64,000 nucleotides of DNA from Opitutales bacterium (lineage in GTDB: Bacteria > Verrucomicrobiota > Verrucomicrobiia > Opitutales > UBA953). A program made the position numbers and the translations under genes. The first letter of the stretch is position 1; the number at the start of each line of letters is the position of its first letter. The notes beneath the pieces are model-generated. The model had not been told where the DNA came from, did no database searches, and was given only the letters and a program-made list of their open reading frames with translations. Below are positions 9,238-59,790 of this stretch, piece after piece. The DNA is taken from NCBI GenBank assembly GCA_017935025.1, contig JAGBIL010000044.1, forward strand, positions 1 to 64,000, in the 5' to 3' direction.

Positions 9238-9873
9238 ATGAAAATGATTAAGTTGTTATTCGCGACGGGAGCTCTCTTGTCGGGCGGAGTGCTCTTCACA
9301 AACGCGCAGGAGGTCGATACTACCTCCGCTTCGCAAAAAAGCTCCGAAGTAACGAGTGCCGTTTTGGATATCCTTCAGACGAATGATTACGGTTACCACG
9401 ATTCTCTCACCGATTCCCGTCTGAGTACCGACGCTTTCGGATTCATTTGGGGAAGGACATCTGTGTTCAACGCACCGTGGATCTTTGATTCCATTAGGTT
9501 TGAGGTAAAATTTCGCCTTGATTCGATAGTCCCTCCGCCGGAGGAGTCCTACGGAATCCGCTACCTTGGCGGGGACGGGAATGAGGTTAAAGGGGAGGTA
9601 GAATTCCTCGAAAACTACAATATTGATCTTACCGGGCAAAACCCGACGGTAATCTCGTATAAATTTGATACTCCACAGGTATGGGCTGTCGGCGAAAGCA
9701 AAATCCTCATGACCATCATCGACCCGAGAGCCGGGGCGTTTGCGGATGTCCGGGCCTCTCTTTATTATGGGGATGAAGTTGCCTCTCTTGTGGTTCCCGA
9801 GCCGTCTGCTTTCGGTATGCTTGCGGGGCTTGGGGCGCTGGCGCTCGTTGCCGCTCGCCGCCGCCGCAAATAA
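9238..9873 (+). CDS. PEP-CTERM domain surface protein
   Basis: A 211-residue protein with a cleavable signal peptide (about residues 1-24, ending FTNAQ) and a C-terminal VVPEPSAFGMLAGLGALALV followed by AARRRRK. This Pro-Glu-Pro, hydrophobic span, Arg-rich order is the sorting signal recognised by exosortases, which cleave it and export the protein to the cell surface. The body is a beta-rich domain of unknown role with several Asp/Ser/Thr-rich loops. It does not closely resemble the paralogous pair at 24.7-27 kb. No Shine-Dalgarno sequence is visible before the ATG. Confidence 0.9.
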   Translation: MKMIKLLFATGALLSGGVLFTNAQEVDTTSASQKSSEVTSAVLDILQTNDYGYHDSLTDSRLSTDAFGFIWGRTSVFNAPWIFDSIRFEVKFRLDSIVPPPEESYGIRYLGGDGNEVKGEVEFLENYNIDLTGQNPTVISYKFDTPQVWAVGESKILMTIIDPRAGAFADVRASLYYGDEVASLVVPEPSAFGMLAGLGALALVAARRRRK

Positions 9874-18389: not shown

Positions 18390-19028
18390 ATGAAATCAAA
18401 TTTTTTGATTCGAGCCGCGATGATTTTTGCGGCTCTTTTCTTTTGCCTCGGTTTTTCCGCGTGCAAAACTACGCGGGGCCCTGGAGCGTATCCAGATTCG
18501 GCAGTTCGCGACGACGGACCGGGAACGCAAGATTACCGTATCCGCCCATTGGATACGTTGCGTTTTGAGATGTATGCGGAGCCGGATAATCGCGGAGAAT
18601 ATCGTGTATCCAAGGAAGGCAATATCACGCTGAACTTCATCGGACAGGTTTCCGTTGACGGGAAGACACTTGCCGAGTTGAAGGAGTACATCGAAAAGCG
18701 TTACCGCGATGACGGGTTCTATACTAATCCGCAGGTTACGCTGACGGTCATTGCTTACGCCGAACGTCGCATTTACGTTTCCGGATTTGTCGCAAGTCCC
18801 GGTCCGGTTCTGATTCCGATTGAAGAGGAATTGACTTTGGGCAAGGCGATTGATGCCGCTCGTGGTGTTTTGCCGCGCGGCTCCCGAACGGATGTGAAGG
18901 TTACGCGGACGAAAGACGGTGTTATTCGTACCTGGGAAGTGGACCTGAAAGCGATCCAGGAAGGCTACGAGCCGGACTTTCCGCTTGAAGAAGGCGACCG
19001 TGTTTACGTTCCGGACAGCGCTATTTAA
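18390..19028 (+). CDS. Wza-like polysaccharide export lipoprotein
   Basis: A 212-residue lipoprotein (signal ending LGFSAC, acylated Cys25). After a short linker comes the polysaccharide biosynthesis/export domain (YRIRPLDTLRFEMY, with VSKEGNITLNFIGQV). An SLBB beta-grasp domain follows (RRIYVSGFVASPGPVLIPIE to FPLEEGDRVYVPDS). It is shorter than E. coli Wza (about 380 residues) and has no clear C-terminal amphipathic helix, so the separate barrel upstream may form the outer-membrane passage. No Shine-Dalgarno before the ATG. Part of the three-gene export set. Confidence 0.88.
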   Translation: MKSNFLIRAAMIFAALFFCLGFSACKTTRGPGAYPDSAVRDDGPGTQDYRIRPLDTLRFEMYAEPDNRGEYRVSKEGNITLNFIGQVSVDGKTLAELKEYIEKRYRDDGFYTNPQVTLTVIAYAERRIYVSGFVASPGPVLIPIEEELTLGKAIDAARGVLPRGSRTDVKVTRTKDGVIRTWEVDLKAIQEGYEPDFPLEEGDRVYVPDSAI

Positions 19029-19067
19029 TCGTTGTATCGGGAGACTTAACTAAAAAACTTTTTTATA

Positions 19068-21347
19068 ATGGCTAATTTAGAAGATAGAGAGCCTGCCGTC
19101 GATAATACCGTCCCGGGGCAACAGCCCACGGGGCCGGGCTACGGTTACGGCTACAACGGTAATTACGGAAGCGGCTACGGCTCCGGATACGGTGAAGCTC
19201 CGAGCTTTTCCGATATGATGCAGACGCGCACGCTTTCCGACTGGATCGCGATGTTCCGCGAGCGTATTTGGTATTTGATTCTTTCCGTGTTCGTTGTCGT
19301 CACGGGAACGCTCATTTACACCTACAACGTCGTGCCGGAATATACGGCATCCGCGCGCCTTCGTGTTTTGAAAAACGCTGTTCAGGCTGCGCCGGGTAGC
19401 GGAGCCAATACGACGTCGCTCGATGCGATTTCCGGGCAGGAAGACTTTCAAACGCAACTCGAAATCATGCGTTCGGGAACGATTGTGAAGCGTGTGCAGT
19501 CGCGCTTGACCTCGCCGGAATTGACGGAAGTCGTTCGTCCGTATCAGGGCGGGAACGTGTTCTCCGGTCCGCTCACTCCAACGGAGGTTATCGCGAAGCA
19601 CCGCAATGTCATTCCTCAGAAGGCGACGTTTATTGCGTTTGTCGAATACACGCATCGTCGTCCGGAAGTCGCCGAAAAGCTCGCGAACTATTTCGCTGAA
19701 GAAATTCAGAAATATAATTCCGAAGACCGTGCCAACCTGACGAGTCCCGTTATTGAGTCGACGCGTGTTCAGATTGAGCAGATGGAGCACACGCTCGCAC
19801 AGCAGCGCGAAGAGCGCAATTTGCTGATTAAAAACGAGCGTTTGCTGACGACGGAAATGGGCACGGCGAATGCCGAACTTTCCAGCGTTATCGCCGTTCG
19901 CGATACGGAACGCAAGAATTACGAAGACGTCCTTGCGATTCGTAACGAAATTCAAAAAACGAAAGAAGCGGGTCTTTCGCTTCTCTCCCAACCGGCGATT
20001 ACGAGCAATCAACTCGTCGCGACTTTGCTCCCGCGTGTCGCGGACTTGCGCATTTCGATTACGGGACTTCTCGAAAAGTACGGGAAGAATCACCCGACAC
20101 TGATTGCGCAAACCCAGCAGCTCGAGCAGGCTGAAGCCGAGCTCGCGGAAGCCGTGAAGAAAGCGGAAGCGGAATTCGATTCCAACTTCGTTGCGGCGAA
20201 GCGCCGTTATGAATCCGCGCAGAAACGTGCGGAAGAAAAAGAAGCTCAGCTTGTGCGCCTACGCGATGCGATTTCGCACCTTTCCGCTCTCGACAAGAAG
20301 ATTCTTCTGAACGAAGAATTGCTTCAGCGCCTGAAGTTCAACTTGGAGGACTTGAAAATGCGCGTTATCGGCTCGGTTTCGTCGATTGTCAGCATTCTCG
20401 ATCCCGCAGTTGTTCCGACGCGTGCGTCCAATAAAAACTTTGTACTGAACGCGATTTTCGGTGTCGTTGCCGGGCTCGCCATCGGTTCCGGGATTATTGT
20501 TCTTCTTTCGTTCTTTGACGATCGCATCAAGTCGACTCGCGACATTGAAAGTTTCCTCAATATTCCGCTCTTGGGTACGATTACGCAGCTTCGCCACATA
20601 AAATCTCCGGTGGATAAAGCGTGCGTCGTTTCCAACGGAAAGGATCGCGGAGCCACGGAAGCGTTCCGTGCGGTTTATTCCGCTTTGAAAATCGGGGAAC
20701 AGTCCCGCCTCGCGAAAGTTTTCCTCGTTACGTCGACGATGCCGTCCGAGGGGAAAACGTTTGTTTCGACAAACCTTGCGCAGACTTACGCCGCTCATGG
20801 TGATCGTGTTTTGGTTCTGGACGCGGACTTGCGTTTGCCGAATGTCGGAAATTCCCTCGGCCTGGCCAAAGACGAACGCGGTTTGACGCGCTACATGGAA
20901 GGCTCAATGACGCTGGACGAAGCGATTATCCGCGATGTTCGCCCGAATTTCGATGTGCTTCAGGTCGGCGCTTACTGCAAGAACCCGACGCAAATCATCA
21001 ACAGCCAGAAGTTCCGCGATATGCTCGAAGAGCTCAAAACGCGCTACGACCGTATCGTTGTCGACACGCCGCCGATCGGTGCCGTTTCCGACGTTTTGAA
21101 CCTCTTGCCGCTTTGCGACGGTATTGTTTACACGGTTCGCTTCAATACGGTTCAGCGCACGATGATCAAAAACAACCTGCATCGCATCCAGGAATCCAAG
21201 GTTCCGGTGTTCGGCGCAGTCATGAACCAGATGGTTCGCGAAACGGCTCGCTACTACGTCAGCTCCGGGCAGTACGGGATGTATTCCAAGTATTACCACT
21301 CGGCGCAGGCGAAAGAAGTCGAAGTTCAAATCGACAAAAACGCGTAA
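19068..21347 (+). CDS. Wzc-like polysaccharide co-polymerase with BY-kinase domain
   Basis: A 759-residue protein. The first 55 residues are a Gly/Tyr-rich cytoplasmic tail (GYGYGYNGNYG and repeats). Two transmembrane segments (about 70-90 and 460-485) flank a long coiled-coil periplasmic part with a Wzz domain. The C-terminal bacterial tyrosine kinase has Walker A (SEGKT near residue 560), Walker A' (VLVLDADLRLP near 585) and Walker B (RIVVDTPP near 662). A terminal Tyr cluster (YYVSSGQYGMYSKYYHS) is the usual autophosphorylation tail. It controls chain length and export with the Wza-like protein. Glycosyltransferases and a flippase/polymerase are not in the window. Confidence 0.92.
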   Translation: MANLEDREPAVDNTVPGQQPTGPGYGYGYNGNYGSGYGSGYGEAPSFSDMMQTRTLSDWIAMFRERIWYLILSVFVVVTGTLIYTYNVVPEYTASARLRVLKNAVQAAPGSGANTTSLDAISGQEDFQTQLEIMRSGTIVKRVQSRLTSPELTEVVRPYQGGNVFSGPLTPTEVIAKHRNVIPQKATFIAFVEYTHRRPEVAEKLANYFAEEIQKYNSEDRANLTSPVIESTRVQIEQMEHTLAQQREERNLLIKNERLLTTEMGTANAELSSVIAVRDTERKNYEDVLAIRNEIQKTKEAGLSLLSQPAITSNQLVATLLPRVADLRISITGLLEKYGKNHPTLIAQTQQLEQAEAELAEAVKKAEAEFDSNFVAAKRRYESAQKRAEEKEAQLVRLRDAISHLSALDKKILLNEELLQRLKFNLEDLKMRVIGSVSSIVSILDPAVVPTRASNKNFVLNAIFGVVAGLAIGSGIIVLLSFFDDRIKSTRDIESFLNIPLLGTITQLRHIKSPVDKACVVSNGKDRGATEAFRAVYSALKIGEQSRLAKVFLVTSTMPSEGKTFVSTNLAQTYAAHGDRVLVLDADLRLPNVGNSLGLAKDERGLTRYMEGSMTLDEAIIRDVRPNFDVLQVGAYCKNPTQIINSQKFRDMLEELKTRYDRIVVDTPPIGAVSDVLNLLPLCDGIVYTVRFNTVQRTMIKNNLHRIQESKVPVFGAVMNQMVRETARYYVSSGQYGMYSKYYHSAQAKEVEVQIDKNA

Positions 21348-22637: not shown

Positions 22638-23507
22638 ATGAACATCACTGTTAAAGATCTCCTCGACGCCGGTGTCCACTTCGGTCACCAAACCCGCCGC
22701 TGGAACCCGAAATCCCGCGAATTCGTCTTCAAGCACCAGAACGGGATTTCCATTATCGACCTCGAAAAAACGTTCGAATGCCTCGAAAAGGCAACGAAGT
22801 TTATCGAAGATACGGTCGCTTCCGGCAAGGACGTGCTTTTCGTCGCTACGAAGCGTCAGGCGCAGGAGCTTATGCGTGATGCCGCTAAGGCGTGCAATAT
22901 GCCGTATGCGGTCAATCGCTGGATGGGCGGCTGCCTCACGAACTTCGAAACCGTCAAAGGTTCTCTCGAAAAGTATCGCAAATATCTCCGCATGGAAGCG
23001 GACGGCTCGCTCGACAAAATGCACAAGAAAGAAGCGGCTGTCATCAAGCGCCAAATGACGCGTATGGCTCGTGGCTTCGAAGGTTTGCTCGACTTTTACA
23101 AACTCCCGGGCGCCGTTTTCGTGGTCGATATTCTCAATGAAGAAATCGCCGTCAACGAAGCCAAACGCCTCAACATTCCGTGCGTCGGTCTCGTCGATAC
23201 GAACTCTGACCCGACGCAGGTCGCGTTCCCGATCCCGGGCAATGACGATGCCGTTAAGTCCGTTCGCCTCATCGTTTCCGTTATTTCCGATGCGATTCAG
23301 GCAGGTCTCGCCCGCCGCGAAGCGGAAGCCTCCGCGCGCCGCGCCGCCGTTCCCGCCGCGAAACAGGAAATCGGCAGCGCTTCCGTCGAACCGGAAGTAA
23401 CGATTTCTCCGGACTTGCTCAAGGACAGCCAGCTCGCCGACGCCAAGAAACCGGCTCGCCGCACCGGCGTTCGCAAGCCGCGCGCTCCCAAAGCGAAAGC
23501 CGAATAA
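22638..23507 (+). CDS. rpsB: 30S ribosomal protein S2
   Basis: A 289-residue protein with the S2 signatures LLDAGVHFGHQTRRWNPK near the start, VNRWMGGCLTNFETV around residue 95, and PGAVFVVDILNEEIAVNEA and LVDTNSDPTQVAFPIPGNDDA later. The C-terminal 55 residues are an alanine/lysine-rich extension (…KKPARRTGVRKPRAPKAKAE) beyond the E. coli length of 241. GGAG lies about 12 bases before the ATG. The standard partner tsf follows 42 bases on. The 215-base gap upstream has no gene and probably holds the promoter, but I see no convincing hexamers. Confidence 0.97.
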   Translation: MNITVKDLLDAGVHFGHQTRRWNPKSREFVFKHQNGISIIDLEKTFECLEKATKFIEDTVASGKDVLFVATKRQAQELMRDAAKACNMPYAVNRWMGGCLTNFETVKGSLEKYRKYLRMEADGSLDKMHKKEAAVIKRQMTRMARGFEGLLDFYKLPGAVFVVDILNEEIAVNEAKRLNIPCVGLVDTNSDPTQVAFPIPGNDDAVKSVRLIVSVISDAIQAGLARREAEASARRAAVPAAKQEIGSASVEPEVTISPDLLKDSQLADAKKPARRTGVRKPRAPKAKAE

Positions 23508-23549
23508 GTTTTCGTCGAAAGATTAAACAAACAGAAAGCACTTAAAACT

Positions 23550-24146
23550 ATGGCAGCTATTACTGCACAAATCGTTAACGAACTCCGTTCCCGCACGGGA
23601 GCAGGGCTCATGGACTGCAAAAAAGCGCTCGTCGAAACCGATGGCGATATGGATGCCGCCGCAGAAATCCTTCGCAAGAAGGGTGCCGCGACGCGCGATA
23701 AAAAAGCCGGTCGCTCCGCCTCCCAAGGCACGGTCGCTTCCTACATTCACATGGGCGGACGCATCGGCGTTCTCGTCGAAGTGAACTGCGAATCCGACTT
23801 CGTCGCCAAGAACGAACTCTTCCAGAACTTTGCCCGCGACATCGCGATGCACATCGCCGCCGCCGCTCCGCGTTTCATCACGCGCGAAGAGGTTCCCGCA
23901 GAAGAAATCGCCAAGGAAACGGAAATCGTTAAGGCTCAGTGCGAAGGCAAACCCGCGATGGCGATTGAAAAAATCGTCGCCGGTAAGCTCGACAAATACT
24001 ACAGCGAAATCTGCTTGCTCGACCAGCCCTACGTTAAGGACTCCACGGGCAAGACGACGGTCAACGATCTCATTACCGAGCAGATCACGAAGACCGGCGA
24101 AAACATCAAGATTTCCCGCTTCTCCCGCTTCCAGATCGGAGGCTAA
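23550..24146 (+). CDS. tsf: Elongation factor Ts (short form)
   Basis: A 198-residue protein. The N-terminal UBA-like domain has [26 protein letters not shown], and the core has [20 protein letters not shown], the guanine-exchange contact. It lacks the second core subdomain of the 280-residue E. coli protein and so is close in size to the Thermus form; ends with [17 protein letters not shown]. It recycles EF-Tu from GDP to GTP. Operon with rpsB, followed by a terminator. Confidence 0.96.
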
Positions 24147-24188
24147 GAGAAAAGAAAAGCTTAACGGTTAAAGTTTAGAGCTTAAAGA

Positions 24189-24237
24189 AGCGTTCCCGCG
24201 CGGCGAAAGCCGTTTTATGCGGGAGCGCTTTTTTTTT
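24189..24237 (+). terminator. Compound terminator with nested GAAA tetraloop hairpin
   Basis: AGCGTTCCCGC (24189-24199) pairs with GCGGGAGCGCT (24219-24229, one G-T pair), enclosing GGC-GAAA-GCC, and is followed by nine T. The same nested hairpin is found after the exbD pair at 40663. Confidence 0.88.
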
Positions 24238-24364
24238 ACGCCGGAACATACGGGAAACACGGAATCGCTTTTTTTGTTTAACCGGAAAGGCTGGAAAAGA
24301 AGGTTTTAATTAGAGGAGAAGCGACACTCCTGTCGCTCCCGTGAGGCTTTCGGGCTTTTTTTTT

Positions 24365-24699
24365 GCACGCAGATTCGCGCCGATTAGCGCGGATAAGAAG
24401 CGTGGGAACGCAAAACCTCTCACGAAGCCAAAAAGCCACGGAGTTTTAATTTGGGGTTCGGAATGGAAATTCCGTGTGTTCCCGTCCGTTTCCGGGGTTC
24501 AAAAAAAAATGACGACTCTTGGAAGCGATAAGTACGCGGAGTGCGGGGCTATGTCGCTTCTCTTATAAAAATACCAAAAAGGTAGAGATTGGTGTTGACT
24601 CGACTTTTTTTTTTGCAAAATCCCAAAATCGAAATTGGGACAAAATTGTTAGAGGCGGTCTCTTACATCTCAGTTTCTCTACTAAACTTAAATAAAATA
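24365..24699. repeat. Leader repeat, copy A, before the first tandem PEP-CTERM gene
   Basis: About 335 bases almost identical to 25777-26100, with only a few single-base differences. It starts with GCACGCAGATTCGCGCC, contains a CTCACGAAGCC...CACGGAG element and a hairpin-like GGAAGCG...CGCTTC, and ends with the promoter and 5' leader of the gene. The 24240-24364 stretch before it holds only a short dispersed hairpin (24315-24340). Confidence 0.9.
24572..24621 (+). promoter_or_regulatory. PEP-CTERM promoter A: TACC-N5-GGTA dyad, TTGACT, T10 spacer, CAAAAT
   Basis: TACC (24572-24575) and GGTA (24581-24584) form a dyad with a 5-base centre, 10 bases before TTGACT (24595-24600). A run of ten T (24605-24614) lies inside a 15-bp spacer before CAAAAT (24616-24621). 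The same order occurs before the genes at 26127, 43205 and 58769, with spacers of 15, 17 and 17 bp. At 15 bp the promoter should be weak. Confidence 0.65.
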
Positions 24700-25638
24700 A
24701 TGAAAAAAATGTTCTTAATGTCGGCTCTTGCGTTGTCTGGAGTCGTTACCGCATCGGCGAGTGAAGCCCTCTATGATGCGTACTATGTCGATACTAATAC
24801 TACAGACAATGGGTATCAGTATACACAGGTTACAAGTTATAAACTCAATCTGTCTTCGGGTGATGGCGATTGCGGAACTAATTACGCCCAATCTCAAGGG
24901 TGGAGTCGTTCGGGAACGATTCAGACCGTCGATTTAAACGGTCTTTCCATCGATTTTTCAAAAGATGCTCGTTACGAAATAACCTTTGGAGCCAATTTCT
25001 TTGTGAACAATCCTGTAGGGGGACAAATTCCGTGTGTGAATTTGACAATGGTTAGCAAAGACAACACCCGAACTCTCATGTTCGGAAATTCTAATGACGA
25101 TCTTTGTCAGGTCGGATGGTTTTCTGGAGATTGGTCGGAAAAGACGAACGGGTTGAAGTATTTGGGGGCTCTTTCCTCAGAAGACACCAATGTTTGGACT
25201 GCTGCCGGAGGTGTTGTTTCGACCGGATTTTGTGAGTTCAAAATTGTTTTCGAAACGTTTGCAGACCCGAATATTCATGACCAGATTGACTATTCTATTA
25301 CTCGTAACGGGCAAACGACATCGTTTACTCGGCTGAGCTCGGACGACATGACGCATAATATTGGAAGTCTCGTTTTTGATGACATTGGGTTCACGGTTGT
25401 GGGGGCAAATTTCCCCGCCGGAATGACGGAGCCTGCAAACGGAGAGAATGGCGTAACGCTCTTGTCTTATTATAACGGAAAGAACGTTGGAACCTATACG
25501 GAGTATTCTAGAGCAGAGGTTCCCCAGCCGGAACCGGAACCTCCCGCTCCGGACGTTCCTGAGCCGTCGGCGTTTGGTTTGTTGGCGGGCTTAGGTGCGA
25601 TCGCGCTTGCGATGTCGCGCCGCCGCCGCTCCCGTTAA
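24700..25638 (+). CDS. PEP-CTERM domain surface protein (tandem copy 1)
   Basis: A 312-residue protein from the ATG at 24700 (MKKMFLMSALALSG..., signal to about residue 22). The frame is open upstream to 24589, but that part covers the promoter. The body contains the module SIDFSKDARYEITFGANFF also seen in the paralogues at 26127 and 58769, and a later FDDIGFTVVGANF. The C terminus has a proline-rich spacer (QPEPEPPAPDVPEPSAFGLL), a hydrophobic span and SRRRRSR, the exosortase sorting tail. No enzymatic motif. The mRNA leader is about 75 bases and lacks a Shine-Dalgarno. Confidence 0.9.
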   Translation: MKKMFLMSALALSGVVTASASEALYDAYYVDTNTTDNGYQYTQVTSYKLNLSSGDGDCGTNYAQSQGWSRSGTIQTVDLNGLSIDFSKDARYEITFGANFFVNNPVGGQIPCVNLTMVSKDNTRTLMFGNSNDDLCQVGWFSGDWSEKTNGLKYLGALSSEDTNVWTAAGGVVSTGFCEFKIVFETFADPNIHDQIDYSITRNGQTTSFTRLSSDDMTHNIGSLVFDDIGFTVVGANFPAGMTEPANGENGVTLLSYYNGKNVGTYTEYSRAEVPQPEPEPPAPDVPEPSAFGLLAGLGAIALAMSRRRRSR

Positions 25639-25753
25639 TTAAGCGAAATCGGTTTTAGGGTTTGTCGGGTTTCCCTTAGAAAAATCCGATTTCATATATA
25701 ATTGTAGATTAATGTTAGCGCCCCTGAGAGGTACTCTCGGGGGCGTTTTTTTT
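25632..25753 (+). terminator. Conserved 3' flank with terminator, tandem copy 1
   Basis: CGCCCCTGAGAG (25719-25730) pairs with CTCTCGGGGGCG (25734-25745, one G-T pair), followed by nine T. The preceding 85 bases are nearly identical to those after the second tandem gene (27026-27111). Confidence 0.88.
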
Positions 25754-25776
25754 TGAGGGGGCGGGCTTTTTTTTTT

Positions 25777-26100
25777 GCACGCAGATTTGCGCCGATTAGC
25801 GCGGATAAGAAGCGCGGGAACGCAAAACCTCTCACGAAGCCAAAAAGCCACGGAGTTTTAATTTGGGGTTCGGAATGGAAATTCCGTGTGTTCCCGTCCG
25901 TTTCCGGGGTTCAAAAAAAATGACGACTCTTGGAAGCGATAAGTACGCGAAGTGCGGGGCTATGTCGCTTCTCTTATAAAAACACCAAAAAGGTAGAGAT
26001 TGGTGTTGACTCGACTTTTTTTTTTGCAAAATCCCAAAATCGAAATTGGGACAAAATTGTTAGAGGCGGTCTCTTACATCTCAGTTTCTCTACTAAACTT
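25777..26100. repeat. Leader repeat, copy B, before the second tandem PEP-CTERM gene
   Basis: Near-identical to 24365-24690 over its whole length. The two copies diverge abruptly just before the start codons (copy B has an A-rich insertion). Confidence 0.9.
25983..26032 (+). promoter_or_regulatory. PEP-CTERM promoter B: mutated dyad arm, TTGACT, T10 spacer, CAAAAT
   Basis: CACC (25983-25986, one base off TACC) and GGTA (25992-25995), then 10 bases to TTGACT (26006-26011). Ten T lie in a 15-bp spacer before CAAAAT (26027-26032). One dyad arm carries a T-to-C change relative to copy A. Confidence 0.6.
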
Positions 26101-26126
26101 AAAGAAAGAAAAAAAAAATAAAGACT

Positions 26127-27032
26127 ATGAATAAGTCATTCTTAACTGCAACGGCTCTCTTTTTGGCGGGCTCGCTCTGTGCAAGTGCTACATGGAAGGA
26201 GTCCACAAAGATGCAGAGTACGGAGAAGGTGAAGTATACGTATGAGGAAGAGTCGTCGACCAACTTCCTCGGCACGGCAACTTCGTTTACCGGCATTGAT
26301 ACGACGGGAGTCTCAAATGAGGTTCAGCATCATGTAGCGGGAACAGTCGATTTTACGCGTGACGCTCGTTATCACATCACGTTTGAAGTACAGCACCAAG
26401 GATACAGTTCCGGAGAAACCCCGGCATCTGTGGTCCTCTCCCTTATTAGCACCGGAAATGATATTTCCTTGTTGTTTGGCAATGCGGCGGACACGATGGC
26501 ACGTTTCGGTTGCATTTTGCACAAAGACGTAACCGCGACATTCGCGCAGGAGAATTTTGTCAATAATTCCGCAGGTACTAATTACTGGTCAACGCTACCT
26601 TCCGGCATGGCTTACGGAAACGGAACTTACCAATACGATCTCATTTTTGAAACATTTAGCAATAACTCCATTAATGATAGGATTTATTTTGGCGTAACAA
26701 ACGAAAATACAGGGCGAACGGTTACTTCTCTGGTTCTGAACAGCTCCCATTTGGGCCCAGGAGGACATACCACAACGGTTTTTGATGATATCGGTTTTCA
26801 TCTCGTCGGCAACTCGGGAGGGGCACTCAGCAACCCTGGAGGAAACCCGGGTGCGACGCTTGTTGGAAACAGTACCTATGTTCCACAATCAAAAATGACA
26901 GTTTATACGCGCACGGAAGAAATTATCCCGGAGCCTCCCGCCCCGGATGTTCCTGAGCCGTCAGCCTTCGGCTTGTTGGCGGGCGTGGGTGCGATTGCGC
27001 TTGCTGCGTCGCGCCGCCGCCGCTCCCGTTAA
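26127..27032 (+). CDS. PEP-CTERM domain surface protein (tandem copy 2)
   Basis: A 301-residue paralogue of the preceding gene: signal peptide (MNKSFLTATALFLAGSLCAS), the module DFTRDARYHITFEVQ, then FDDIGFHLVGN and the tail PEPPAPDVPEPSAFGLLAG ending SRRRRSR. The last 35 codons and the flanks are nearly identical to copy 1, whereas the body is strongly diverged. This suggests surface-exposed, selected or recombining sequence. Exported and probably anchored by exosortase processing; function otherwise unknown. Confidence 0.9.
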   Translation: MNKSFLTATALFLAGSLCASATWKESTKMQSTEKVKYTYEEESSTNFLGTATSFTGIDTTGVSNEVQHHVAGTVDFTRDARYHITFEVQHQGYSSGETPASVVLSLISTGNDISLLFGNAADTMARFGCILHKDVTATFAQENFVNNSAGTNYWSTLPSGMAYGNGTYQYDLIFETFSNNSINDRIYFGVTNENTGRTVTSLVLNSSHLGPGGHTTTVFDDIGFHLVGNSGGALSNPGGNPGATLVGNSTYVPQSKMTVYTRTEEIIPEPPAPDVPEPSAFGLLAGVGAIALAASRRRRSR

Positions 27033-27150
27033 TTAAGCGAAATCGGTTTTAGGGTTTGTCGGGTTCCCTTAGAAAAATCCGATTTCATATATAATTGTAG
27101 ATTAATATTAGCGCCCCTGAGAGTTACTCTCGGGGGCGTTTTTTTTTTTG
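27026..27150 (+). terminator. Conserved 3' flank with terminator, tandem copy 2
   Basis: CGCCCCTGAGAG (27112-27123) pairs with CTCTCGGGGGCG (27127-27138), followed by a long T-run. The flank matches the one after copy 1. Confidence 0.88.
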
Positions 27151-27172
27151 TGGGGGGCGGGCTTTTTTTTTT

Positions 27173-27347
27173 GCACGCAGATTCGCGCCGATTAGCGCGG
27201 ATAAGAAGCGCGGGAACGCAAAACCTCTCACGGCATCACGAAGGCACGGAGCCTGATTTGAGGTTGGGAATTGTAAATTCCGTGTGTTCCCGTGGTTAAG
27301 AAACTTCGTGTGTTCCACGGGAGCGACAGGAGTGTCGTGTCTCCCGT
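27173..27347. repeat. Partial leader repeat, copy C, and dispersed hairpin
   Basis: Bases 27173-27230 repeat the first part of the leader (GCACGCAGATTCGCGCC to CTCTCACG), then diverge. A hairpin of the GAGCGACA...TGTCG type lies at 27317-27347. The remaining gap to nuoJ (27348-27462) holds one copy of CGTTCCCGC and no gene. Confidence 0.75.
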
Positions 27348-27462
27348 AAATAAAAACGCTGCGGCTCTATGTCTTTGTGAGAAGTTTTGCGTTCCCGCAG
27401 AGGGGTGTGAATCTTCTTTTTTCTTTCGCTTGCGGGCAGAAAGGTTTACAGTTGAGGCACTT

Positions 27463-28014
27463 ATGGTTGATACTTTGTTCTACCTTTTTGCTACACTGAC
27501 TTTGGTAAGCGCCTCCCTTGTGGTGACGAACCGCAAGCCTGTGAATAGCGTCGTTGCGATGATTGTTACGATTGTCGGCGTGGCGGCGAACCTGTTTCTG
27601 TTAGATGCTCCGTTTTTGGCGACCTTGCTGATTATGGTCTATGCCGGAGCAGTGATCGTGTTGTTCCTTTTCGTCATTATGTTGATGGATCCGGATGTCC
27701 CCGCATTAAAGCGCGGCTGGTTCGGGACGGCCCTTGTCGGCGTAGTGTTTTTCGCGCTTTGTGCGGCGGGAACGGTTTGGCTGTTCGGTTTTTCCGGTGC
27801 GGTTCCCGTGATTTCGGCTCCGACGGAAAATATGCCGGCGGCGCTTGCTTACTCGAATGATGCGACCGCGTTCGGCTGGCCGCTGTTCACGAAGTACGTT
27901 GTTTTGGTCGAAGCGTCTGCGCTTTTGTTGCTTGCGGCGATGGTCGCCGTGTTCATGTTGCATTCGCGTCGTCGCGGGAACGAAGAATCCTGCGGTTGCT
28001 GCTGCAAAAAGTAA
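27463..28014 (+). CDS. nuoJ: NADH-quinone oxidoreductase subunit J
   Basis: A 183-residue protein from the ATG at 27463; an upstream in-frame start at 27292 runs through repeat sequence. Five hydrophobic segments, with ATLLIMVYAGAVIVLFLFVIML in the third, the NuoJ signature around the pi-bulge helix. The last residues are Cys-rich (EESCGCCCKK), which is unusual and unexplained. First of five nuo genes in the usual J-K-L-M-N order; the peripheral-arm genes and nuoA/H are not in the window. Confidence 0.93.
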   Translation: MVDTLFYLFATLTLVSASLVVTNRKPVNSVVAMIVTIVGVAANLFLLDAPFLATLLIMVYAGAVIVLFLFVIMLMDPDVPALKRGWFGTALVGVVFFALCAAGTVWLFGFSGAVPVISAPTENMPAALAYSNDATAFGWPLFTKYVVLVEASALLLLAAMVAVFMLHSRRRGNEESCGCCCKK

Positions 28015-28038
28015 GTAAATTTTTTAGGGAAAAAAGTC

Positions 28039-28338
28039 ATGACTTTATCTCATTTTCTTGTTCTTGCCGGTTTGCTGTTCGGCATCGGGTTGACGGGTGC
28101 CGTGGTGCGCCGCAGCGTGCTCGTCGTTTATATGTCTTTGGAAATGATGCTGACGGCATCGATGCTTGCGCTGGTCGCGTTTTCCAAATACTGCAACCTG
28201 ATGGACGGGGCGGTGTTTTGCTTCTTCATTATTACGATCGCGGCGGCGGAAGTTGCCGTCGGCTTGGCACTGATTGTTTCTCTCTTCCGTAAGCGCAAAA
28301 CGGTGGATTTGGACGATTTGCAATCTCTGAAAAACTAA
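28039..28338 (+). CDS. nuoK: NADH-quinone oxidoreductase subunit K
   Basis: A 99-residue protein with three membrane spans, the standard size. It has the NuoK sequence GIGLTGAVVRRSVLVVYMSLEMMLTASML with the membrane glutamate (SLEMM), and a second Glu in AAAEVAVGLALIVSLFRK. Both acidic residues are known to be part of the proton path. It starts 24 bases after nuoJ, with AGGGAAA upstream. Confidence 0.96.
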   Translation: MTLSHFLVLAGLLFGIGLTGAVVRRSVLVVYMSLEMMLTASMLALVAFSKYCNLMDGAVFCFFIITIAAAEVAVGLALIVSLFRKRKTVDLDDLQSLKN

Positions 28339-58331: not shown

Positions 58332-58643
58332 GGCGAAGAGATTAAAGGTTTCATTTTTTTCGATAAACAGAAATTTCTCGGGAACACAAAATCCCTCGCG
58401 CAGCCGCAGAGATGCGGAGTTTAGATCGGAATGACGGACTCCGGTCTGTCACCGTTGCGGGAACGGCATGGCGTTTCTGCTAAAATCCGTCGGCTTCTCG
58501 GAAACAGATAAGCGTGCCGCTTTTCCCGTTAAATTAAATATGAAAGATTATGAATAAGAAATGAAGAATCAGCTTTTTTCTCTGTCCTCAAAAACCTTGT
58601 GTGTTCCCGTGGAGGCGGGCTGAGTTCGTTTCTTTTGATAAGC
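58332..58643. other. Intergenic region with repeat phrases, no gene
   Basis: It holds GCAGCCGCAGAGATGCGGAG (the recurring phrase also seen near 45710), one GCGGGAACG (about 58458) and an AT-rich stretch at 58530-58570. The promoter of the next gene starts at 58644. Confidence 0.7.
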
Positions 58644-58695
58644 TACCTGAATGGTAGAAATTGGTATTGACTCGCTTTTTTTTTTTTTGCAATAT
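58644..58695 (+). promoter_or_regulatory. PEP-CTERM promoter with TACC-N5-GGTA dyad and T13 spacer tract
   Basis: TACC (58644-58647), TGAAT, GGTA (58653-58656), 10 bases, TTGACT (58667-58672). The spacer is 17 bp and contains a run of 13 T (58676-58688); CAATAT (58690-58695) is the -10. Two more T than in the tandem copies restores the ideal spacing. Confidence 0.65.
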
Positions 58696-58768
58696 CACAG
58701 ACTCGAAATTGGGACAATATTGTCGGAGACGGTCTCTTACATCTCAATTTCTCTATAAACTTAATAAA

Positions 58769-59659
58769 ATGAAAATACAAAAAACATTGGGGGTAACCTC
58801 GCTTCTCTTCGCCGGAGTTTCCGGGTTGATGGCATTCGTTAACACCTACAGTGAGCACCCGGACTATACCTATACCCAAGTGAAATTTAAGACGCTTGAC
58901 GATGTCGATGTCAAAGGGTCGAACGCAACTACCGGGGTTACAAATTACCACTGGGCGGGAGAAACTCTCGACTTAACCGAGGACGCGCGTTATGAGTTCT
59001 GGTTTAGAGTGAGCTTGTAAGGAACTCCTTCGCTGGAAGTCCGACCTCTATTTAACTTTTATTTTGCGACAGATACGAAAAGTCTGCTCTGCGGGACATA
59101 CTATGGGCCGATGGACGTGGGAACCCCGCCCCTCGTTCCCTCGTCCCTCGGCGTTGGCGGTGTTTTCGCGTTCAATACGAATGTCGCAGACGGCGATTTA
59201 GTGACAGGATCCGATAAGACTTATATTCTTGATGCGCGCGCAGCCGATGCAAACCCTGAATGGACCCCTCCTGATTATTATAGGTCGCCGTCGTCCAGCT
59301 TGCCCTCAGACTACCCGCGCAACGCACTATACGACTACTACATCCGTATCGAGTCATTTGCAGGTAAAGTGAAAGAGCCTAGATTTTTCTTCGGATGTTA
59401 TGATCGGACCAACTCTACTTGGTTGCAGTTCGGGACTCTCGGGTTGTACGGCGATATATATCGGTCAGACTCAACTACGGAGGTCGGGTATTACACCGCA
59501 GACAGCGGAGGCTCGGTGGAAGTTACCCATGCGCAATTTACCAAAAAACTTCGTACGCCTTCCTCGGATCCGAGTATTCCTGAGCCGTCGGCGTTCGGAT
59601 TATTGGCGGGCTTGGGGGCGATCGTCCTTGCCGCGTCTCGCCGCCGCCGTTCCCGCTGA
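58769..59659 (+). pseudogene. PEP-CTERM surface protein gene interrupted by an in-frame TAA
   Basis: The frame from the ATG at 58769 gives a signal peptide (MKIQKTLGVTSLLFAGVSG), then LTEDARYEFWFRVSL and a TAA at 59018-59020 (codon 84). The same frame stays open to 59659 without further stops and ends with the regular tail SIPEPSAFGLLAGLGAIVLA and SRRRRSR. It is a paralogue of the tandem pair. A single base change or a readthrough stop separates the two parts; a restart at 59111 would lack a signal peptide. I cannot exclude a sequencing error. Confidence 0.8.
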
Positions 59660-59753
59660 TTAAGCGAGATTAGACCTGAGGTTCGTCGGGTTTTCTTCGT
59701 GGAAAAATCCGAGCTCATCTGTAAAATTGTAGATTAGAATCAGTACAATTAGA

Positions 59754-59790
59754 CACGCTTGAGAGACGCTCTCAAGCGTGCTTTTTTTTT
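59754..59790 (+). terminator. Terminator after the interrupted PEP-CTERM gene
   Basis: CACGCTTGAGAG (59754-59765), ACG, CTCTCAAGCGTG (59769-59780), then C and nine T. The upstream flank (59659-59750) is a diverged version of the flank after the tandem genes. Confidence 0.9.

Follow-up and report, generated by a model that had tools for sequence, protein, structure and literature searches.

Discordance between the conserved ends and the bodies of PEP-CTERM genes in a gut Verrucomicrobiota lineage suggests replacement of bodies by recombination

The window analysed here is a stretch of 64,000 nucleotides from an Opitutales bacterium (contig JAGBIL010000044.1 of assembly GCA_017935025.1) and is part of a 2.03 Mb draft genome in 46 contigs (G000). 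Two adjacent PEP-CTERM genes, U1 and U2, sit in the window between tsf and nuoJ. Both products matched PF07589 (24.8 bits for U1 and 24.2 bits for U2, cut-off 20.7) and carried the PEP-CTERM motif, the transmembrane helix and the basic end. Signal-like N-termini were assigned to the units by a simple rule. The genome encodes an exosortase (PF09721, 115.9 bits, G000:C13:15048-16016), and exopolysaccharide export genes (Poly_export and Wzz-type) were located at 18390-21347 of the window. The EF-Ts protein of the window was 100% identical to that of three Opitutales/Verrucomicrobia genomes, namely, G005 from goat rectum (L086), G007 from sheep rectum (L087) and G003, isolate SIG76 (L091), and 93% identical to that of Candidatus Spyradosoma merdigallinarum (G002). 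The source of the window is an uncultured gut Verrucomicrobiota lineage. Units are named by genome, contig and position (e.g., G005_C7_34010); in two-species pairs without a genome prefix, the G000 unit stands first. The features of the locus are given in Table 1.

The earlier note on this DNA described near-identical flanks of about 330 bases upstream and 120 bases downstream around bodies of only distant similarity, and global alignment bore out both points. Only 4 of the 334 aligned sites in the 5' flank (24356-24690) and 4 of the 128 sites in the 3' noncoding part (with 12 gap columns) differed between U1 and U2, whereas the body had 431 differences over 781 sites and a further 89 gap columns. 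Repeat finding paired 24356-24508 with 25768-25920 at 99% and 24490-24707 with 25901-26118 at 94%, and the 3' blocks were paired at 88-89%. The E-values of the flank similarity (1.8e-169 and 2.8e-95) excluded a chance likeness, and the flanks had an exact 120-nt word in common. The DNA identity stopped just 5' of the ATG and returned near the PEP-CTERM tail. The proteins were 37% identical over residues 83-303 including the tail and 29% identical in the body alone, and the signal peptides were just 55% identical. The near identity claimed for the last 35 codons held at the protein level (94% over 34 codons) but not at third positions (71%); therefore, the very recent identity is that of the noncoding spacer. 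The coding tail was about as similar as the tails of other paralogs. A third partial leader, placed at 27173 by the same note, proved to be an intergenic repeat without the promoter part, which is followed by nuoJ and not by a third gene.

Table 1. Features of the U1/U2 locus and related units in the window.
Feature	Position	Strand	Basis or remark
tsf (EF-Ts), left neighbour	23550..24146	+	PF00889
Intergenic repeat A, copy 1, upstream of U1	24356..24508	+	99% to 25768-25920
Leader/promoter region P of U1 (class A leader), shared with other units	24540..24699	+	leader comparisons; putative promoter role
U1, PEP-CTERM protein, 312 aa, body predicted as ConA/L-type-lectin-like beta sandwich	24700..25638	+	PF07589 24.8 bits, AlphaFold2, VIA-align
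U1 conserved coding tail (PEP-CTERM, transmembrane helix, basic end)	25534..25638	+	13/105 sites differ from U2 (global alignment)
U1 3' noncoding flank with terminator stem-loop 25717-25747	25639..25767	+	4/128 sites differ; terminator scan, 14-bp stem
Intergenic repeat A, copy 2	25768..25920	+	left context as copy 3, right context as copy 1
Leader P of U2	25951..26126	+	98.7% over 156 nt to U1 leader
U2, PEP-CTERM protein, 301 aa	26127..27032	+	body nearest G003_C6_46659 and G005_C7_34010 (48%), not U1
U2 3' noncoding flank with terminator 27110-27140	27033..27163	+	repeat finding, terminator scan
Intergenic repeat A, copy 3, incomplete, lacking promoter and gene	27164..27231	+	repeat comparison
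nuoJ-like gene, right neighbour	27466..28014	+	PF00499
Third class-A unit: leader, related body with in-frame TAA near 59018, tail, terminator region; looks decayed	58626..59776	+	
Another PEP-CTERM unit, class C leader	9238..9870	+	collinear G005 site holds unrelated body and leader

The silent sites of the ends and of the bodies did not match. Four-fold sites were alike at 20 of 25 positions in the U1/U2 tails and at 15 of 36 in the bodies, where silent sites are near saturation. The counts for the signal peptide, tail and body were 8/9, 21/22 and 7/23 in C1_62665-C38_882 and 13/13, 18/21 and 61/157 in C11_3522-C1_2834. The phylogeny of the bodies was likewise discordant with the ends. In a tree of 16 bodies, U1 and U2 fell into one seven-member clade (97/96), U2 grouped with G005_C7_34010 and G003_C6_46659 (100/99), and a sister relation of U1 and U2 was rejected (AU p = 0.0012). 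Hence, the ends were joined to the bodies after the bodies had separated. The G005 site of the nearest body relative of U2 corresponds in G000 to the place where contigs C28 and C43 end. Beyond the shared left flank the sequence there is a different one, and an unread gap separates the two contigs.

These results bear on one of the two options of the earlier note, in which gene conversion keeps the flanks alike and the exposed part is under diversifying selection. Cast as a rival explanation, it starts from the tandem duplication of one gene, with the bodies driven apart in place. The homology of the two bodies and their place in one clade agree with such a history. However, the U2 body is nearer to the G005 and G003 genes than to U1, and diversification in place fails as an explanation because the bodies are not sisters. 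Moreover, silent sites would not become saturated through selection at the protein level, and they are near saturation in the bodies of both U1/U2 and C1_62665/C38_882. Conversion with diversifying selection is thus not sufficient and was considered unlikely. The other option, bodies exchanged as cassettes between fixed ends, gained support from the rejected sister relation of the two bodies and from the wider comparisons given below.

Six relatives' loci were examined, and the only two that hold both tsf and nuoJ, those of G005 and G003, had the two genes adjoining without any PEP-CTERM unit; no nuoJ match occurred within the stretch read in the other four. Both outer junctions of the array, on the tsf side and on the nuoJ side, matched collinear G005 sequence. 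The left context of repeat copy 2 is that of copy 3 and its right context is that of copy 1, as expected if two units with unlike bodies had recombined by unequal crossover. A 40-nt inverted pair at 24304/27316 has one arm on either side of the array. The array was considered as a transposon and rejected as such, since the pair is a hairpin-type dispersed repeat found in other stretches of the genus, and a similar hairpin at the unoccupied tsf-nuoJ junction of G005 indicates that it is not an element end. The 18-nt hairpin sequence at 24320-24337 and 27322-27339 occurs only twice in the window, flanking the array on both sides; it is dispersed in the genus and absent from 1.19 Mb of outside loci.

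The PEP-CTERM set was then compared across the genus, with one genome per species. G000 had 55 matches at E up to 10, 41 of them over the cut-off; at E up to 0.05, 47 matches were found in G005 and 65 in G003. A total of 136 units of at least 150 aa, taken from the surroundings of matches over the cut-off, were compared; left out of the counts were a spurious ORF match (C20:35119), shorter proteins and unfetched matches below the family cut-off. Leader and signal-peptide DNA was similar in 28 pairs in G000, 170 in G003 and 52 in G005, and the body was similar in 15, 34 and 3 of these pairs, respectively. Behind 12 leader pairs of G000 that were 88-98% identical, the bodies had 27-75% amino-acid identity. 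In the 38 class-E proteins, defined by an MKKYIT-type signal peptide, there were 15 invariant columns, of which 2 fell in the signal peptide and the other 13 in the tail. The U1 leader was 78-86% identical to those of three units (C33_988, C40_80267 and the one at 58626) and 82% identical to that of G005_C22_51272. Elsewhere in the genome, leaders and tails recur around other bodies. Leaders move as well: that of C40_80267 is of class A, and its G005 counterpart (73% in the body) has a leader that is not among the matches to it. No canonical sigma-70 promoter was found in the leader, where site counts were near the shuffled mean, and no known RNA element reached Rfam thresholds in the flanks within 23500-28100.

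A store of promoterless silent bodies, which the earlier note proposed to search for, did not turn up: no array of donor bodies was seen in the parts of each genome that were read, and only one full unit broken by a stop and two lone tails were found. The lone tails, at L217:6376-6660 and L277:989-1210, have no body and are possible remnants of deleted units; the gene directly before one of them is presumably rmuC, judging by eye. Contigs C1, C11, C24, C33, C38 and C41 of G000 terminate no more than about 300 nt from a PEP-CTERM tail. PEP-CTERM units thus break assemblies, and their number is probably underestimated.

For ten PEP-CTERM sites, the sequence on either side was collinear in a pair of genomes drawn from G000, G003 and G005. 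The bodies were unrelated at three of these sites (Z of -1.2, 1.3 and -1.1) and 58% identical at one, and the body was kept at six. Unrelated bodies stood between leaders and tails that were each 83-84% alike in C33_33485/C22_24476 and C23_31659/C12_89205; in C20_9229/C12_24153, only the tail (82%) and the downstream sequence (87%) were alike. In G003_C10_313503/G005_C20_169694, the leader (93%), tail (100%) and downstream sequence (99%) enclosed a body of 58% identity with sharp profile edges, and four-fold sites in a G003-G005 pair were alike at 15/15 positions in the signal peptide, 18/18 in the tail and 38/62 in the body. Across species, then, the genes were not the same everywhere and the flanks had further copies. 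A PEP-CTERM protein at L305:12522-13406 in G003 and L230:4851-5750 in G005, with flanks mostly 95-100% identical between the species and a body of 58%, has a Cys/His protease-like pattern by eye. G003_C7_13310/G005_C8_44031 and G003_C10_274862/G005_C20_121526 contained stretches that were 97-99% identical between species, and other PEP-CTERM flanks were often at 80-90%; the stretches of 97-99% suggest recent transfer between the two species.

A crossover was also found within a tail. G000_C3_12687 follows G005_C8_55695 from upstream to 11 nt before the end of the ORF and follows G005_C7_142637 from 85 nt before the end of the ORF onwards, and G000_C29_46577 has the converse pattern. On these alignments, the two units are read as a reciprocal exchange with the crossover inside the conserved PEP-CTERM tail. 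The two tails have only a 19-nt exact word in common, which argues against a misassembly.

An alternative without recombination holds that the leader, signal peptide and tail are kept for one regulon and one sorting machine and that the bodies are old or fast-evolving paralogs. The rapid turnover of PEP-CTERM proteins and their fast expansion by paralogs, described by Haft et al. (2006; PMC1569441), are in its favour. Among the class-E signal peptides of G005, just 210 of 350 four-fold sites are alike, a value that fits old paralogs under protein selection. Against this, the near identity extends to silent sites and to noncoding repeat A, which has no obvious function, and neither the reciprocal tail crossover nor collinear sites with unrelated bodies can be explained without recombination. 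This alternative was therefore considered improbable.

A dedicated diversifier was explored as well; the candidates were a diversity-generating retroelement (DGR) of contig C33, a tyrosine recombinase and a mobile element. The DGR (L335, G000:C33:5482-9015) is real, with a reverse transcriptase and a 142-nt template/variable repeat pair that is 87% alike and has 17 of 30 mismatches at template A; a second variable repeat lies at L269:10401-10542. The element presumably comprises a reverse transcriptase with an IGNLTSQ motif and an FGE-sulfatase-like variable protein. The genome also has eight tyrosine-recombinase-type matches. However, within the fetched G000 stretches the template repeat matched itself, its own variable repeat and one other place (L269) but no PEP-CTERM unit, so the DGR was rejected as the cause. 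Furthermore, U1 and U2 differ across the whole ORF, with gaps, and no recombinase was recognised in the U1/U2 interval. A diversifier of this kind is highly unlikely.

The reading that we find probable is that PEP-CTERM surface proteins acquire new bodies through homologous recombination, with the conserved leaders, tails and intergenic repeats as its sites. The replaceable unit would consist of the intergenic repeat and leader, signal peptide, body, PEP-CTERM tail and terminator, with U1 and U2 as two of many. RecA-type recombination between the conserved ends of different units would replace the body (the whole ORF in U1/U2) and leave the ends in place; the donor unit could lie elsewhere on the chromosome or come from the DNA of a related cell. 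The genome encodes a ComEC-type protein, so that relatives' DNA might be taken up. A unit would have been gained at tsf-nuoJ. The downstream repeat of one unit (copy 3 type) would have crossed over with the upstream repeat of another (copy 1 type), producing two different bodies in tandem and a duplicated spacer. Recombination at unit ends would occasionally rearrange the chromosome.

Several observations weigh against this reading. The exact words common to most units are short, with medians of 16 nt in leaders and 25 nt in tails, and are near or below the usual length needs of RecA recombination. The six collinear sites with a kept body had 59-98% identity. The 12 most similar leader pairs of G000 (at least 85%) all precede homologous bodies, mostly 27-55% identical; hence, fully unrelated bodies were not seen behind the most recent exchanges. 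Protein lengths were similar at the sites with unrelated bodies (228/231, 233/238 and 211/233), which leaves some room for a single fold that diverged very fast; replacement and extreme divergence may both contribute. Every genome is a draft of uncultured bacteria, and local misassembly is possible since the U1/U2 repeats share the 120-nt word. An assembly artefact, in which long repeats caused units from separate loci or strains to be fused, would fit this word, the 46-contig draft and the contigs that end near PEP-CTERM tails. It was nevertheless judged very improbable: a chance join would not make both outer junctions match collinear G005 sequence, the reciprocal exchange has just its 19-nt shared word, and the same pattern appears in three independent genomes.

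The U1 body was modelled with AlphaFold2 on 20 relatives, which gave a beta-rich model (predicted local distance difference test, pLDDT, 71.7; predicted template-modelling score, pTM, 0.71). VIA-align matched the model to legume and ERGIC-53 lectins with Z of about 12 over ~180 residues; for legume lectins, Z was 12.6 with a root-mean-square deviation of 3.4 over 179 residues. The U1 body is thus predicted to have a ConA-like jelly-roll (L-type lectin) fold. The likeness to L-type/legume lectins and other ConA-like proteins lies in this predicted fold; the sequence identity was ~10%, the Foldseek TM-scores were low (0.3-0.4), and in the U1 family (20 members) no Pfam family besides PEP-CTERM was convincingly matched, with no Pfam lectin match. 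Laminin_G_3, which has a ConA-like fold too, was matched in 4 of the 38 class-E members. Because of these matches and those of the U1 model, a glycan-binding role of the bodies at the surface is likely. The body would be displayed at the surface or in the exopolysaccharide, where swapping would change what the cell binds or shows, presumably to its advantage.

In Haft et al. (2006; PMC1569441), PEP-CTERM/exosortase (EpsH) sets are described as having many copies per genome, with a signal peptide, a 24-residue tail and little body homology. They have large upstream noncoding regions, with common upstream DNA motifs in Proteobacteria that are linked to sigma-54. The proteins are among the most rapidly evolving of their genomes, and their turnover between close species is ascribed to duplication and loss (PMC1569441). 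The set studied here is alike in copy number, in a predicted signal peptide combined with the tail, in the scant homology of bodies, in the extent of upstream noncoding DNA and in rapid turnover. It goes beyond that account in that the DNA-level ends (leader, signal-peptide codons, tail codons and terminator) are younger than the enclosed bodies, the body changes while the site stays, and a breakpoint of a chromosome rearrangement lies within a tail. The discordance of ends and bodies, the replacement at collinear sites and the tail crossover exceed turnover by duplication and loss. Literature searches found no paper describing body-swapping of PEP-CTERM genes.

Streptococcal M proteins (emm) have a conserved upstream region, a signal peptide and a C-terminal anchor, and their variable body is exchanged by homologous recombination. 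The units studied here share this plan; unlike emm, they occupy about 40 or more sites per genome, depend on Gram-negative exosortase sorting and have bodies of several unrelated families. In silent-cassette antigenic variation (pilE/pilS, vlsE and msp2), a variable body is replaced by recombination within a fixed expression context, and this context is shared as well. In contrast to those systems, most units here have their own leader and terminator, and the store would be expressed units or the DNA of other cells.

A wider and more tentative proposal, which we hold to be somewhat doubtful, is that the PEP-CTERM set forms one shared open repertoire of about 40 or more slots per cell. Leaders and tails would act as standard recombination ports, lectin-like and other bodies would be exchanged between slots and cells, each lineage would show a different glycan-binding combination, and the ports would rearrange the chromosome. 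PEP-CTERM turnover was already known, and the proposed swapping of bodies between fixed ends is the new part. The diversity of these proteins has been known since 2006, with no shown mechanism found in the literature; body exchange between conserved ends would explain it. If true, a gut Verrucomicrobiota lineage has a surface-variation system with the logic of M-protein switching, spread over dozens of genes.

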